This document shows positions 56,307 to 63,937 of a stretch of 64,000 nt of DNA, in pieces. Position 1 is the first letter of the stretch. Every line of letters starts with the position of its first letter. The notes below the pieces were generated by a model. The model did no database searches, was not told the origin of the DNA, and saw nothing but the letters and a program-made list of their open reading frames with translations. This DNA is from Trichocoleus desertorum NBK24 (GTDB lineage: Bacteria; Cyanobacteriota; Cyanobacteriia; FACHB-46), in NCBI RefSeq assembly GCF_030409055.1, contig NZ_CP116619.1, forward strand, positions 5,386,109-5,450,108. The letters run 5' to 3'. A program made the position numbers and the translations under genes.

Positions 56307-57775
56307 GTAAGGGCGCAACCGCAAGTTTGCCCCTTAGTGTTCAGCAATGATATGAGCCATCGTAATTGCTCAACCCAGTAGCCAATCTGTCTGCTGTGAG
56401 GTAAGGGCACGGGAAATGGCATCAAAGGCAGCAATGCCCTGACGCTTCGCAGTGTTGACAAGCGATCGCACCTGAGCGAATAGCTCCGCTCCCCAGTCCG
56501 AGCGGAATCCGTTCGTCACCTTGCGAAAGACGACGCTCCAGCGCAACGCCTGCTCACTGGCATTATTGGTTGACGGAATTGTCTCATCCGTCAAAAACAG
56601 CAACAGATGAGCCCGAATCTTCTGATAGCGTTTGAGCAACCGCTGTCCCTCGAGCGATTTGGGTTGCAGATTCAAGATCTCCCGCAGTAAGCCGCGAAAT
56701 CGAGAGCAATACTGCTGAACGGTTGAGGCAGCCAGGGTGTGTCGTCGCCGTTGCAGGGCAATGGCTTTGAGGAGCAGCCATTTCATCCGGGGCGCAAACA
56801 ACTCATCACCCGCATCCATGGCATACTGACAATCGCGCAGTTGATGGGCTAGACACACTTGCCAGTCGTGCGCCGGATGGGCGGTCTGGGCACTGAATAA
56901 ATCAGACACCCAAACCTGTGGTTGATGCCCCGCCATCACGGTATCAATGACCGTTTTGCCACGACTGGGACGAATCACGTGCAAACACACCTGGTCGTTC
57001 TGAAACACCCATTCCCACTGGTTGGTCCCCTTCACTCGTGCCCCCGTCTCATCACTGCCGACGAGACGAGCACTGCGTAAACGTTCGACAATCTTGGCCA
57101 CCGGGTTTTCTAGCTGAGAGCGCACCCGTTGCAGGAGATTGGCAATCGCTCCTTCGGACAGGCTGAGACCGTAAAGCTCACTCATCAGCTGGCTCAGCCG
57201 TTGATAGCTGATGGCATGGCTGTAACGGAGATAGGTCACTAAACTCACGACACTGGTGCCAAAGGGAGACCCTGGCTCCAAACCGACTGGAACAGGCGCT
57301 TCATACGCCTGCTGACAACACTGGCAAGTCCCACCGTAACGTTCAACCCGGGTGATGTGAGGAGTCATCGGCGGCAATTCAATGCGTTCGTAAGTCCCGC
57401 TCAAGCGTTGTGTTGATAGCTCCACTTCGACCCCACAGTGGGGACAACTCTTGGCTTGGGCAACGACGACTTGATCCGGTTGTTGGCTCAATTCTCGCCC
57501 ACCGTTACGGTGACTTCCCGTTTCCTCACCATTGAGGGCAGGGGACTGAGCCCTCCTCTGATTTGGCTTGAAGCCCTGAGAAGGAGGCAAACTTGAATTA
57601 CGGGAGGTTTTCTTGACCCGTTTTTGCTTCAGCTTTTCGACCTCTGAGCGCAACGTTTGCAACTCCTGCCACAGCCCTTGAATCAGGGCATCCTTTTCTG
57701 CGTGACTCAGTCCAGCGAGAGGGGGCAGTTCCTTCATGGCAAAAGTTTATCATCTTCTACCAAAGGCGTGCTTAG
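56307..57775 (-). mobile_element. IS66-family insertion sequence
   Basis: About 1.47 kb around one transposase gene. Likely ends are GTAAGGGCGC at 56307 and the weakly matching CTAAGCACGC (complement, ending 57775). No 8-bp target duplication is visible, suggesting a rearrangement after insertion. It abuts the attC site on the left and the 3' end of the serine hydrolase on the right. Confidence 0.7.
56370..57737 (-). CDS. IS66-family transposase
   Basis: 455 residues, complete. The N-terminal coiled coil (TLRSEVEKLKQK), Pro-rich SRNSSLPPSQGFK motif, a zinc-binding CPHCGVEVE and CQCCQ pair, and DDE residues (GSDETGARVKG; VWVSDLFSAQT; NNASEQALRWSVVFRK) are typical of IS66 transposases of the stand-alone type without tnpA/tnpB partners (ISBst12-like). 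The frame has no interruption. Confidence 0.93.
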   Translation of the reverse strand: MKELPPLAGLSHAEKDALIQGLWQELQTLRSEVEKLKQKRVKKTSRNSSLPPSQGFKPNQRRAQSPALNGEETGSHRNGGRELSQQPDQVVVAQAKSCPHCGVEVELSTQRLSGTYERIELPPMTPHITRVERYGGTCQCCQQAYEAPVPVGLEPGSPFGTSVVSLVTYLRYSHAISYQRLSQLMSELYGLSLSEGAIANLLQRVRSQLENPVAKIVERLRSARLVGSDETGARVKGTNQWEWVFQNDQVCLHVIRPSRGKTVIDTVMAGHQPQVWVSDLFSAQTAHPAHDWQVCLAHQLRDCQYAMDAGDELFAPRMKWLLLKAIALQRRRHTLAASTVQQYCSRFRGLLREILNLQPKSLEGQRLLKRYQKIRAHLLLFLTDETIPSTNNASEQALRWSVVFRKVTNGFRSDWGAELFAQVRSLVNTAKRQGIAAFDAISRALTSQQTDWLLG

Positions 57776-58829
57776 GTCAACCTAGTTGAGCAATTACGAG
57801 CCATCTTATAAACTAGGGCTAATCCATAGTCATGTTTATCTCGGTTAACCAGTGCTGTGATTGTTGTGCTAAAACCTGCCAATCTTGAAAAATGAAATGC
57901 GGCAGCTGAATATCCTGGTCCTTCACCTGTGTGCCCTGTAACCTTTCCATAAGGGGATTCTGTATCTACAAATAGTCCTAACCCATATCCTAAACTCTCA
58001 AATAACGGGAATTTCCCCAGGTTGTAAGTAGGGCAGGACATTTGTTCAACAAGTGACAGGTCGAGAATCTGTCCTCTAAATAACACATCTATGATTGTTG
58101 TAAGTTCTGGTGCAGTAGAAATAACAACCCTATGAGCAACCCAGGCTGGGTGATAGATGTGGGTTATATCTTGTAATTCATCTCCATTGAAAAAAGCGGA
58201 ATATCCTGGAGTCAGATGAAAACTATTGTCTAAACTTATGGGAACAAAGGATTTTTTCAAAGACAGAGGGCTGAAAATCACTTGAGCTAAGAGCATCTGT
58301 ATTGATAAACCGGTTGTTCGCTCAAGAATGCGTTTGAGTAATAGATAGCCGATATTGGAATATCCCCATCCTTTGCCTGGCATGAATCGTAGTCCTTGAG
58401 TTTGGGCAAGATCTAGAAACGTTTCTGTTGACCAAGGAGAGCTTGGATTGGCTTTGACAGCCTCAGAATAGGCAGGCACTCCGCCGTAATCTGGTAGTCC
58501 ACTAGTATGGCTTAGCAGCTGGCGAAGTGTGATGGAACTATCTAGAGAAAGATCACTGAGGTAAGCATGTACAGGTGTGTCTAGTTCAAGCAATCTTTTT
58601 CCCACAAGATATAGTGCTACCGTTGCTATCAGGCTTTTAGTAATGCTGTAGATATAAAAACTAGCATCTGTAGACAGCAACACTTTATGATCTCTGTTTT
58701 CACAGCCAATCCCTGTTCGAGAAAAGCTTGGCCATTGATATGTACAGCGATCGCAGCACCAGGAGTCTGAGATTTAATCAAGGACTGCTGGACGACTAAT
58801 TTGAGTTGCTCTCGACGGTCTTGCTCCAC
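57772..58829 (-). pseudogene. Serine beta-lactamase-like hydrolase, single frameshift
   Basis: About 352 codons split by one missing base. The first frame gives MEQDRREQLKLVV and HINGQAFLEQG (58829 to about 58712). The other frame continues IGCENRDHK, then LLSTDASFYIYSITKSLIAT with the SITK active-site SxxK. YSN (in GYSNIGY) and HTGEGPG follow. The two join smoothly if one base is restored in the GGG/ATTGG run near 58710-58713. The stop codon lies inside the IS66 end. Probable penicillin-binding-protein-like or esterase family; inactive as read unless the lost base is an assembly error. Confidence 0.8.
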
Positions 58830-59474
58830 AGTAAAATACTTGAATACATACTGGTTCAGCTTCTATGGTAGGGGTTGTATGGCGATCGCCGCAGACACGC
58901 ATATAGTCGGTTGTGAAGTTGCCAATATTGTCGCCGTCCGGTTAGCTTCAGTGTTATCGCCTACGATGTCGAGTGCTTTAATGAAGCTATGCATTGTCAG
59001 ATCTTTCTTCACAAAGAGGGTAATCCCCAAAGCGATTACGCAGTCTGTGTTTGAGCGATCGCCCCTCTCCCCCCACCCCTTGGCGCGATCGCAAATTTAA
59101 TGAAAGTACAGATGTTATGTGACCAATCATGACTATATTTTTCGTGACTAGAAGAGATGTTGAGATCGCTTCAAGAAACCCCTAATGCTGATAGAAAGCG
59201 GTTGAATGTCAGAAGGCGTAAGGATTTGAGGTCAGCAGAGGGATCGAATTGTCACAAAAGTTTGTATTTTTGAGAGCGATCGCTATCAGGAGTCGGGGAT
59301 GATGCCTAAAAAAGCTGAATCAAAATGAGTGTTTTGTGTGGCAGCCGTATGGCAGATGTTGCTGCCCTGGGCATCTGGAATGCATATGCAATCCAATTTC
59401 TGGCTTATATCTAAAGTGTCAGTTGTGGGTCAGTTGTAAGGCAGTTGTTGTGCAGATGGTGCGAGGAGTGGGGA
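58830..59474. other. Intergenic region with CAGTTGT triplet
   Basis: About 645 bp. Both strands hold open but unrecognised frames around 58870-59100 (for example plus-strand ADTHIVGCEVANIVAVRLAS), which I do not call. Three CAGTTGT copies at 59420, 59431 and 59442 are spaced 11 bp apart just before the Tn5-like transposase. No clear terminal repeat of that element is visible. Confidence 0.35.
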
Positions 59475-60836
59475 ATGAATTGGGTCGCGGAGGAGTTATG
59501 GGATGTAGATTTAGGAGATGCACGGCGGAATCGGCGGTTAGTGAAGATCGTGGAAGACTTAGTGGCGCAGCCAAACGAAAGTGTGCCGCAAGCGAGCCGA
59601 GATGAAGCAGCAGTGCAGGGCGTGTATGAGTTTTGGGACAATGCGCGAGTGAGCGATCGCGAAATATTGAGCCCGCATCAGCGGCGGACAGTGGAACGGG
59701 CAGCAGGCTATGAAACAGTCTTAGCGATTCAAGATACGAGTGAAGTGGATTAAGTGGATTATAGCGATCGCAAAGCGACACGGGGATTGGGACCGATTAG
59801 TAATGCCAAAGCGCGCGGGTTGAAAGTGCATACGGTTTTGGCAGCGAGTGGAGATGGAGTGCCTTTAGGGTTGCTGGGGCAAGAAGTGTGGGCGCGATCG
59901 CAGAAGGGAGTCGCGAAGGATGCCCGGAGTCGAGCGATTGCCGACAAAGAGAGTAAGAGATGGATCGAAGGTTTGGAGCTGAGTCAGACGTTAGTCCCGG
60001 CAGAGAAACAGTTAATTACGATCGCGGATCGAGAAGCCGATATTTACGAACTCTTCGCACATCCGCGCCGTCAGGGGAGTGAGTTTCTGATTCGCGCGGC
60101 ACAAAATCGGAACACGAAATCTACCTCTGTCAGTGGAGAAGTGAAGCCGTTATTCAGTGCGATTCGGCTGAGCACTGTGGCAGGAGAAATCACGTTGAAG
60201 CTGCAACGGACGCCGCGACGGCGAGAGCGGTTAGCCGTGTTGAACGTGCGCTATGGGCAGTTTTGGTTGCAGCCGCCCGCCCATTTGGCATCCTTGGGAG
60301 CGATTGAGGTGAATGTGGTGTTGGCGGAGGAAGAGAAACCGCCGACCGGAGAGAAAGCGGTGGTGTGGCTGCTGCTGACGACGGTCAAAGTGGAGACGTT
60401 TGAGGAGGCATGCCAATGCTTGAAATGGTATTCCAAGCGCTGGTTAATCGAGCGTTATTTCTATGTTTTAAAGAGTGGATGCCGAGTGGAAGAATTGCAG
60501 CTGGAGAGTGCGGGGCGGTTAAGGTTCGCGATCGCGTGTTACTCAATGGTAGCGTGGCGACTGCTGTGGTTGACGTATGAAGCGCGGCAGCATCCAGAGC
60601 AAAGTGTTGCTGGGATCTTAGAGACAGCGGAATGGCAAGTGTTGTACTGCCGATCGCATCAAACAAAAGAGGTGCCGCAAGTGGCTCCAAGCTTGGGTGA
60701 GAGCGTGTTGTGGATTGCGAAGTTGGGCGGATTTTTAGGGCGTAAAGGGGATGGTGAGCCCGGGGTAGAGACCTTATGGCGAGGGTTAGGAAAGCTGCAT
60801 GAAATGGCAGCGACCTGGGAGCTAATGCAGAGCTAG
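59475..60836 (+). pseudogene. IS4/Tn5-like transposase split by a 9-bp duplication
   Basis: Start ATG 59475 (MNWVAEELWDVDLGDARRNRR). The frame reads through QDTSEVD and then meets TAA at 59751, followed at once by GTG-GAT-TAT (VDYSDRKATRGLGP). The same frame resumes to 60836. AGTGGATTA is repeated at 59744-59752 and 59753-59761, and removing one copy restores a continuous 450-residue Tn5-type transposase with intact DDE motif (ITIADREADIYE; the Glu in YSKRWLIERYFYVLKSG). Translation might restart at the GTG, but the N-terminal DNA-binding part would be lost. Confidence 0.85.
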
Positions 60837-61285: not shown

Positions 61286-63937
61286 TCACGAGTCCAGAAA
61301 AACGAGCTGAGCAATTTTGGAGATATCAGGATGTCTGCGGTTATGCCTGGAGCCGAGGTGGTGTTGGTCATGATGCTGTTCCAACGCTTGCTGCATTTCC
61401 TCAAAGACGGTACTGACATTGTTTTGATTGGCGGACAGCCCGTTGGCTCGTAGTAGGGTTTGGAGGACAGGAAAAGAGATGTACCATTTTTCATTTAAGG
61501 TCCGATCGCCTTGGTTGTTGAAGTCCATAATGGCGTGAACGGCGCGGCGAATGTTGTCCAGAGCTTGGTCTTCCGGGAGGCGTTTGCGGGCAGGCTTAGA
61601 AGGAACCGCCTGAGACGGAGTTGCCGATTTTGTCGCAGGAGCGGACTGACTGTGGCTAGCTGCTTGACTAGTAGGGGCAAAAGGTTTTTGCGGTACTGGA
61701 AGGGAGCCAGCGATCGCGCCGAATTCTTGATTAGATTGGCGATTAGATTGTCCATCCCGATCGCCGATGAGCAGATTGCGAAACGCTTCTAGCTTGTTGG
61801 TTGCCAAGTCTCGTTCTTGTTGGAGTCGCTGATTTTCCTGTTGCAGCCGCTCCCACTCTGGGGATGAATTGCCTTGGTTCACGAGCGCGATCGCGGCATC
61901 ACGCTCTTGTCGGAGAGTGTGGACTTCCTGTTCCAAAGCCTCCAGCCTGCCGGTGAGCCAAGCCAAGGTGCGGGCCTGGTCGGCGAGGGCGATCGCGAGA
62001 GTGGGATCGCTAGGCGCTGTGGGTGGTGTTGTAGTAAGAATCGCTTCGTGACTCGGCCCCTCCGCAGGCGATCGCACCCCCTCAGGTTCTGCCAACAGAG
62101 ACAGTAACTCTGCAAGTGCTGATTCATAGCTGAGTCCCACCGTTCCACCCTTGCCGCGAATCTCAAGGCCAAAGTTGGCGGCCACCGAACGCAGCAAATC
62201 AGCATCCACCGAAACAGACTTGCGCCGTGGGCGCAGTTTGTTGGGAGCAAGCTCAGTGGGAGCCTCTGCCACTGTGGCTGCTTCATGTGGGGTATCAGGC
62301 ATTGCAGCGACCTCCTCTGGATGGACAGAATGAGCTTGAGATTGAAAGCATGCAAGGACTTCAACATTGTGCTGAGCGAGCTTCACCCCTCGATTGGGGT
62401 TCACAGTTTCAAAAGGCCTGGGGTTTGGAGCAGCGATCGCACTCAAGAAATCTGCTTCTGGAACTGCTGGCGGGCAAAACCAGTGAAGAGCCAGGCAACT
62501 GTAGAGGGCTCTTAACGCCTCAACACCGTGAAGCGGTACCAAGTCATGAAAAGAGCGATCGCCCACCGCTTGAACCGCTCCGTCAATTTCTGGCAGGGGT
62601 AGAGGTGCAAGTTGACGAAACTGATTCCAGGCCGAGATCACCTGATTAGCAGTGGTGAGAGTGGGAACTTCGACACCCTCGACGAGAATGGAGAACCCAG
62701 TTTTTGGCGAGGGGATTGCCGACAGCAGGGTATCGATGGTTCGCCCCGTCACCAGCAGTAATCCCGTTGCCACCTCCGCCCACTCTTTGGAGAACAAGAG
62801 GCGATCGACCGCCCGATAGAGGAGAGCATTAATCGTGCCTTGCTCCAGCCTCAGGTGAGCCTCTGGAGACTCACCTGTCACGATTGAACCTGAGTCCTCA
62901 TCCTCCACCATTGCTGCTTCCTTCTGAAACACCTCTAAGATTTCTACTCCTGGCAGCCCTAGTTTCACGCCTGATTCACCAGGAGAGCGATCGCGAATCA
63001 GGTAGTCATCGTAATTCTGCCGAGCCGAGTAGTTGGGCAGTTTCTGCCCATCCGTCGTCAACTTGAAGTGCCCCTGAATTTCCGCCTTAAAGCGATGGTC
63101 TGGCACCCACTGGGGTTTGTAGTAGTAGGTGGCAATCTCGGCATACACCGCCCGAAACAAATGAGTGTAGAGCCGTTCCCCATCATCGTTCTCCGCCTCC
63201 CGTCCTGGCACCAAATCCGCGAAGTGTTTTCGGCAAGCATGAGGCACCCCAGAATACTTGGCATTAATGCGCCGTTTGAGATGGTTGTTAGGAAGGTTGA
63301 GTGCCCTGAGTTCCTCAATGCTCCAAACCTGTTTAAGATGAGCGATCGCCCTTAGCACCAAGTCTGCTGGAGCCAACGTCGGGATTTCAAACTCTAGCCC
63401 CACCTCCCCCCGGCGCTTCACCGCTTCCGAGAACAGCAAACTGTAGGCCGTCTTCGGTTTGAACTGAGACAGGAGAATCTCACTAATGCGGCGTCCGACT
63501 AAGACCGATAATCCCGCTGCGACTTCATCTGGCTCATCACTCTCTAGCAGCGCGATCGCCCGCTCGACTAACAGATTGGCCTGCTGACTGGTAAAGAACT
63601 TGTTTTCCCGAGCATTGAGGCGACTGGCCTGCTCATTGTTCATGACGGTATAGACGTTAGAAGGGAGCAGGACATGGGCGATCGCAGGATGCTCCGGATG
63701 AAGCACCCGCAAAGCATTGACAATATCAGTGCGCCGATTTTTCTGCTGGCTTGGCGTCGTTAGCTTTTGCGCTGCAAACATCTGGTCAATTTGCTGAGCC
63801 CAGGCAGCTACCTTCTCCTGCGTATCAGGCGTATGGATAGAGAGATCCCACACTTGAGGCAATAGGGTTTTCAGCGCCTTTTCCAACCATTTTGTTTTAG
63901 CTTGAGCTGTGGCTTTATGGAGCAGATCTCTATCCAT
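61286..63937 (-). CDS. Telomere resolvase (protelomerase)-like protein with duplicated domain
   Basis: 883 residues. The first copy of the catalytic domain spans about 120-315: Arg149 in GRRISEIL, Lys174 in EAVKRRG, Arg262 in THLFRAVYAEI, His290 in IQGHF, and Tyr309 or Tyr312 in NYDDYLI. The Arg-to-Lys distance (25) equals that of TelK-type enzymes. A second copy at about 370-510 keeps Arg399 (VTGRT) and Arg476 but lacks the Lys, His and Tyr, so it is degenerate. Then come a putative small domain (570-620), a coiled coil (650-720), a Pro/Ser-rich linker and a C-terminal domain (785-883). These enzymes cut and rejoin DNA as hairpins; the role here is unknown. Confidence 0.7.
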   Translation of the reverse strand: MDRDLLHKATAQAKTKWLEKALKTLLPQVWDLSIHTPDTQEKVAAWAQQIDQMFAAQKLTTPSQQKNRRTDIVNALRVLHPEHPAIAHVLLPSNVYTVMNNEQASRLNARENKFFTSQQANLLVERAIALLESDEPDEVAAGLSVLVGRRISEILLSQFKPKTAYSLLFSEAVKRRGEVGLEFEIPTLAPADLVLRAIAHLKQVWSIEELRALNLPNNHLKRRINAKYSGVPHACRKHFADLVPGREAENDDGERLYTHLFRAVYAEIATYYYKPQWVPDHRFKAEIQGHFKLTTDGQKLPNYSARQNYDDYLIRDRSPGESGVKLGLPGVEILEVFQKEAAMVEDEDSGSIVTGESPEAHLRLEQGTINALLYRAVDRLLFSKEWAEVATGLLLVTGRTIDTLLSAIPSPKTGFSILVEGVEVPTLTTANQVISAWNQFRQLAPLPLPEIDGAVQAVGDRSFHDLVPLHGVEALRALYSCLALHWFCPPAVPEADFLSAIAAPNPRPFETVNPNRGVKLAQHNVEVLACFQSQAHSVHPEEVAAMPDTPHEAATVAEAPTELAPNKLRPRRKSVSVDADLLRSVAANFGLEIRGKGGTVGLSYESALAELLSLLAEPEGVRSPAEGPSHEAILTTTPPTAPSDPTLAIALADQARTLAWLTGRLEALEQEVHTLRQERDAAIALVNQGNSSPEWERLQQENQRLQQERDLATNKLEAFRNLLIGDRDGQSNRQSNQEFGAIAGSLPVPQKPFAPTSQAASHSQSAPATKSATPSQAVPSKPARKRLPEDQALDNIRRAVHAIMDFNNQGDRTLNEKWYISFPVLQTLLRANGLSANQNNVSTVFEEMQQALEQHHDQHHLGSRHNRRHPDISKIAQLVFLDS

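Follow-up and report, generated by a model that had tools for sequence, protein, structure and literature searches.

What would a telomere resolvase do in the genome of Trichocoleus desertorum NBK24? To our knowledge, cyanobacterial genomes are treated as circular, the exceptions being some linear plasmids and, in Cyanothece 51142, a linear element of 430 kb. The window analysed here, a stretch of 64,000 nucleotides, covers positions 5,386,109–5,450,108 of a single 5,458,034-bp contig. A single unbroken open reading frame fills exactly positions 61286–63937 of the window on the minus strand and has the features of a two-domain telomere resolvase gene (883 amino acids, ATG start, with Pfam, family profile and structure matches). 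A sequence-only reading of this DNA had described the product as telomere-resolvase-like, with a degenerate second copy of its catalytic region, and had offered two roles: maintenance of a linear replicon or recruitment as a recombinase beside an insertion sequence (IS) hotspot.

Identity and active site of the protein

The Pfam family PF16684 (ResT-TelK_cat) matches the open reading frame in two stretches and scores 113 bits where the cut-off is 27 (E 1.6e-32). A profile built from 20 relatives recovers TelA (3.6e-27), TelK (1.2e-14) and ResT (6.5e-7), which together with the Pfam match places the catalytic domain in the ResT-TelK-TelA class. The single-sequence match of the 883-aa protein to the TelA chains in the PDB is weak, and the score with the TelA equivalog model NF052462 is 40.6 bits against a curated cut-off of 800. 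An AlphaFold model of residues 1–560 is good to about residue 345. The structure-based search that had been suggested as a check returned resolvases as its eight best PDB matches, all of them TelA, TelK or ResT entries with Foldseek values from 5e-9 to 9e-5, while Cre came far behind at 0.045; the fold is thus nearer to TelA, TelK and ResT than to Cre-type recombinases. With the intact active site described below, these matches bear out the earlier description, and we consider it close to certain that the protein is by identity a telomere resolvase. The enzyme class is already known, since the PGAP annotation names plasmid relatives ‘protelomerase family protein’. A second PF16684 gene was not found in the single contig of the window genome, and none of the 17 pattern matches obtained with a resolvase query in IMG/VR was a viral homologue.

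The active catalytic domain spans aa 121–316 (62990..63577, minus strand) and includes R150, K174, H259, R262, H290 and Y309. In the family alignment the Arg, Lys, Arg, His and Tyr of the class are all present, as R150, K174, R262, H290 and Y309. The sequence-only reading had listed the series Arg149-Lys174-Arg262-His290-Tyr309/312, which is indeed there, except that the catalytic Arg is R150 and not R149: alignment with the TelA R255A chain sets TelA R255 against the second Arg of G148-R149-R150, and relatives with GLR in place of GRR retain that second Arg. K174, R262, H290 and Y309 are invariant across the 20-row family alignment and Y312 is nearly so, which makes Y309 the likely nucleophile. 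The box-II position is occupied by His259 within an HxxR motif (H259-x-x-R262), whereas TelA (Y363) and ResT have Tyr there (PMC3558466). Judged by its residues, the active site is complete and, in respect of His259, closer to that of ordinary tyrosine recombinases. The active domain has a dN/dS of ~0.08 against a same-genus orthologue.

How does the protein compare with the known systems? TelA of Agrobacterium tumefaciens C58 (PDB 4dwp, 4f41) is the best match by profile and by structure (5e-9); it has the equivalent Arg, Lys, Arg and His and, as we propose below for the window protein, belongs to a chromosomal replicon with hairpin ends. The window protein differs from TelA in having His259 where TelA has Tyr363, an inactive second domain, a coiled-coil-like linker and an extra C-terminal domain, and the 6-bp TCATGA axis of the TelA telomere contrasts with the odd-length axis found in the window's clade. 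TelK of phage phiKO2 (PDB 2v6e) has the catalytic domain in common (Foldseek 4e-8) but is, like the N15 and PY54 protelomerases, a phage plasmid-prophage enzyme, unlike the product of the window gene. ResT of Borrelia (PDB 8vs5) shares the catalytic fold (Foldseek 9e-5); its gene lies on the circular plasmid cp26, whereas the cyanobacterial genes often lie beside a telomere.

Second copy, linker and terminal domains

The active domain is preceded by an N-terminal helical region (aa 1–95; 63653..63937, minus strand), modelled with high confidence, whose similarity is confined to the two-domain clade at the sensitivity used. It is followed by a degenerate second copy of the catalytic domain (aa 368–505; 62423..62836, minus strand) that matches the catalytic family profile at 1.9e-37. 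The alignment confirms the reported degeneracy and extends it from three to four of the five named residues: the Arg is replaced by Thr400, the Lys is deleted, the His is gone and the Tyr is replaced by F509, so that Arg476 alone is kept. This copy is conserved in five other clade members, and in all six proteins compared (the window, G293, G027, G296, Pantanalinema and G419) Thr or Ser stands in place of the catalytic Arg, and the Lys has been lost by deletion. As its dN/dS against the same-genus orthologue is 0.21, the second copy appears to be enzymatically dead yet maintained; by this measure it is under purifying selection in the relatives. Its model, based on few sequences, has a pLDDT of ~40 and is usable for the secondary-structure pattern alone.

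A fast-evolving linker with a coiled-coil-like stretch (aa 540–780; 61598..62320, minus strand; dN/dS 0.42) leads to a conserved all-helical C-terminal domain (aa 790–870; 61328..61570, minus strand; dN/dS 0.08). This domain is present in most cyanobacterial members, and in six small plasmids or contigs it is encoded by a separate adjoining gene. Its model has a pLDDT of 91, and a Foldseek search with it gave no significant match (best VIA Z 2.7). The sequence-only reading had suggested that the degenerate copy could be a dimer or DNA-binding partner; the inactive copy and the C-terminal domain may contact or bind telomere DNA or protect the ends.

Position of the gene and the contig ends

The contig ends 7,989 bp beyond the resolvase gene, whose 5′ side faces that end. 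With the gene 8 kb from the end of this contig, the replicon concerned appears to be the main chromosome, as opposed to an additional element. dnaA is located at 2,633,868, that is at 48% of the contig, and the minimum of the cumulative GC skew, a weak signal sampled in forty 20-kb stretches, falls near 2.6 Mb. The origin therefore appears to lie mid-contig and the contig to end where replication ends; a cut so near the point opposite dnaA would be expected by chance in ~3–4% of cases.

The right contig end reads ...AAGTATTATC (in a fuller form ...AATAAAAGTATTATC) and closes with TATTATC. The same seven bases stand immediately before the central base of a palindrome in the complete genome G027, discussed below, and at both ends of Chondrocystis NIES-4102 plasmid2. 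TATTATC closes a random site with a frequency of 2.4e-5, and GATAATANNNTTATT has exactly two occurrences in the window genome, one of them formed by the very last bases; since the comparison itself supplied the pattern, these two figures are guides and not strict tests. The end is thus a half-site lacking the read-through palindrome, full palindromes being known from relatives, and the contig seems, from these bases, to stop at a telomere axis as the record of Nostoc plasmid pNPM10 does. A search for palindromes, of the kind that had been proposed for this genome, covered the window's final 14 kb and the right 10 kb; no long perfect one was found, and only a 49-bp imperfect palindrome appeared, inside the TniQ region of the right arm (L018:8286). 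When GATAATANNNTTATT was searched in the relatives with one mismatch allowed, matches were mostly near background and exact at a telomere axis in G027 only; the G292-type core GAAGCGAAGNAGTTC, searched in the window genome and the relatives, was exact just in G292, at a contig end, and at background level in the others.

The first 77 bp of the left contig end are identical to the tip of a TniA/TniB/TniQ transposon that lies in the right arm, 5,043 bp short of the right end; no further copy of the tip occurs in the genome. We rejected this end as a telomere because it is a transposon tip; it does end in ATC, but its score is like that of 7% of random sites. What lies beyond may be a right arm in inverted copy, represented once in the assembly, or a second copy of the transposon.

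Outside the window, the TniA/TniB/TniQ transposon of the right arm, near the contig end, is bracketed by an 889-bp direct repeat (L018:4107-4995 and L018:8982-9865; copies 87% identical) that carries a small GIY-YIG-like open reading frame. Within the window, an IS4-like transposase gene adjoining the resolvase gene (59445–60836) is cut into two abutting open reading frames by an in-frame stop at 59751–59753, and a beta-lactamase-family serine hydrolase gene beside an IS66 transposase (57772–58829) is apparently frameshifted into two overlapping ones.

Related genes and palindromic ends

Of 292 genomes sampled across the phylum, 13 have a homologue; in a sample of 388 from the class Cyanobacteriia the count is 96, about a quarter. 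The homologous genes are frequently near contig ends, and most are on plasmids or small contigs. Among 30 matches within ~2 kb of a left contig end, 25 have their 5′ side toward it (p 3e-4; hand-compiled list). Perfect palindromes form many of the contig ends beside homologues, which is what an assembly running through a hairpin would produce; a terminal palindrome of at least 21 bp was seen at 8 of 120,000 random cut points. Both ends are palindromic in G078:C59 (38 bp, with 956-bp terminal inverted repeats), in Calothrix NIES-22 plasmid8 (98 and 146 bp, in a record labelled circular) and in Chondrocystis plasmid2 (189 bp); plasmid3 of the same strain has a 93-bp palindrome at one end. Further end palindromes measure 106 bp in G078:C53, 126 bp in G397:C126, 42 bp in G397:C120, 36 bp in G417, 33 bp in G292, 53 bp in G319, 45 bp in Chroococcus FPU101 and 23 bp in Leptolyngbya FACHB-8, and in G419 a 45-bp palindrome with TATTAT beside its axis begins a 172-kb contig that carries the two-domain enzyme. 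Telomere cores are common to different genera, namely Calothrix, G078 and Nostoc pNPM10; G292 and Chroococcus; G417 and G397; and G027 and Chondrocystis. In Pantanalinema (G336) and G296 the genes for the two-domain enzyme are 17–37 kb away from contig ends at which no telomere was seen.

Three contigs contain internal head-to-head palindromes. G355 has one of 17,482 bp with two identical resolvase genes, and in a 1.55-Mb contig of G373 (G373:C1:908046-925000, L247) two identical resolvase genes flank the axis of a palindrome that is perfect over at least 16,956 bp; an extension of this palindrome to the contig end was rejected, as there was no match at the expected mirror position. The third is in G027, a complete 4,681,111-bp contig that begins at dnaA and carries the same two-domain enzyme. 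Its 6,159-bp perfect palindrome, with an identical resolvase gene in each arm, is located at 45% of the contig, at the skew maximum and opposite dnaA, and its flanks differ on the two sides. The arrangement is explained if the chromosome is linear, has terminal inverted repeats of 3 kb and was closed in silico; in a circular bacterial chromosome, a stable perfect palindrome of 6 kb would be unusual.

Several other records have repeated or inverted ends. The 98,395-bp contig LUGL01000231.1 of Elainella saxicola E1 (L099/L102) has an inverted resolvase gene at each end, the two ~90% identical, and resembles a linear replicon with resolvase-bearing terminal repeats. The plasmid records AP018215 (L072), AP018305 (L300) and AP018302 (L301), which comprise Calothrix NIES-22 plasmid8 and Fischerella NIES-4106 plasmids 4 and 7, are labelled circular yet have terminal inverted repeats, and the plasmids are for this reason probably linear; plasmid8 has terminal palindromes as well, and the two Fischerella plasmids have identical starts at both ends. 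Small linear resolvase-bearing cyanobacterial plasmids (L068, L069, L299) also carry integrases or phage-like genes, such as one for a terminase large subunit in Stanieria pSTA7437.04, hinting at plasmid-prophage ancestry. Divergent chromosomal homologues of ~400 aa occur in G036 (L047) and G309 (L061), both with a gap in the column of the nucleophile Tyr, and the Synechococcus elongatus control genome also gives a match.

A link to hairpins described by others comes from Nostoc sp. N6, whose linear plasmids pNPM8-pNPM10 are reported to have covalently closed hairpins ending AAATTAACRGAC, as deduced from library and coverage evidence in a paper that makes no mention of a protelomerase (PMC5987646). 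Plasmid pNPM10 encodes a member of the family, its record begins at the reported hairpin axis AAATTAACRGAC, and the same axis is found in Calothrix NIES-22 and G078:C53, which ties the gene family to independently reported hairpin telomeres. The Cyanothece 51142 element, cited in the earlier reading as the precedent, stands as one but is not the sole one (PMC5987646). The Nostoc replicons resemble the case considered here in being linear and cyanobacterial; they differ in being plasmids with an even axis (TTT|AAA) and a single-domain enzyme of another clade.

Axis geometry

In the window's clade the palindromes are odd-length in 8 of 8 replicons or contigs, seven of them centred on TC-A/T-GA and one on TTC. 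The axes read TTTATTATC-A-GATAATAAA in G027, CATATTATC-A-GATAATATG in Chondrocystis plasmid2 and AATATTAT-TTC-ATAATATT in G419. Those of the other clades are even (ten ends or internal axes on eight contigs, and by inference pNPM10). All known protelomerases cut with a spacing of 6 bp on a perfect palindrome (PMC3558466). An odd axis is incompatible with a symmetric 6-bp stagger, so a spacing other than 6 bp is probable in the window's clade, and every resolution event is predicted to leave a pair of hairpins with complementary tips. We give about even chances to the fullest form of this proposal, a cyanobacterial lineage with a linear main chromosome, odd-axis hairpins (TC-A/T-GA or a 3-base centre), a two-domain resolvase, a stagger other than 6 bp and a flip-flop of the central bases.

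A model for the main chromosome

Based on these observations, we propose that the main chromosome of T. desertorum NBK24 is likely linear, with ends resolved by the 883-aa enzyme. The replicon acted on would be the one that carries the gene, with dnaA at its centre and the resolvase gene close to the right telomere. Forks moving both ways from the central origin and on through the hairpin ends would yield a circular head-to-head dimer, in which the enzyme would bind each replicated palindromic telomere as a dimer, as TelA does (PMC3558466). Both strands would then be cut through Y309 and refolded, and two covalently closed hairpins sealed. Palindromic ends beside homologues, the half-site at the contig end and the mid-contig origin favour the linear-replicon role put forward in the sequence-only reading. 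Its other suggestion, recruitment as an ordinary recombinase beside the IS hotspot, is less likely in comparison. Some observations count against the model: the left contig end is a transposon tip, the right end is a half-site with no read-through palindrome, the skew is weak, a cut close to the point opposite dnaA can arise by chance, and the contig ends near the two-domain genes of Pantanalinema and G296 show no telomere. Catalysis in T. desertorum NBK24, linearity in vivo and the left telomere are what we infer from these genomic data.

Could the enzyme work while the main chromosome is circular? The enzyme might act, or once have acted, on a linear plasmid since integrated or missing from the assembly. 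Most homologues do reside on plasmids or small contigs, the same-genus genomes G292 and G293 have single-domain homologues near the ends of 12–56 kb contigs, and IS and Tn elements abound in the right arm. Against this, the window genome is one contig with a single homologue, it has a telomere half-site at its end and an origin in its middle, and the complete chromosome of G027 has the same signature opposite dnaA; we therefore regard a plasmid role as improbable, if the likeliest of the rivals. Far less probable is a domesticated or relic tyrosine recombinase devoid of telomere function, to which the degenerate second domain and the divergent chromosomal homologues of the G036/G309 group might point, but which is at odds with an active site that is complete and invariant in the clade, with the low dN/dS of the active domain and with the palindromic ends beside relatives. 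Least probable of all is that the palindromic ends, known from assemblies alone, are assembly artefacts or ordinary inverted repeats such as that of G497, which has a 160-bp spacer and no clean axis, for their cores are conserved between independent genomes, single linear records are palindromic at both ends, and the Nostoc hairpins were deduced by others from read data.

What are the implications of a linear main chromosome? One paper on protelomerases refers to hairpin ends in cyanobacteria just in passing (PMC3558466). In the open-access literature searched we found no description of a resolvase-made linear main chromosome in this group. What is new is the chromosomal setting of the gene, along with an inactive tandem copy that is maintained, a C-terminal domain without a fold match and telomere axes of odd length. 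Protelomerases are used for making closed linear DNA, and an odd-length axis would break the sole geometric rule so far common to these enzymes. A palindromic contig end beside a resolvase gene offers a simple signature for finding further cases; if the model holds, many draft genomes are broken or wrongly closed at telomeres. Linear main chromosomes would mean telomeres in a common bacterial phylum, with chromosome ends that must be replicated, segregated and protected.
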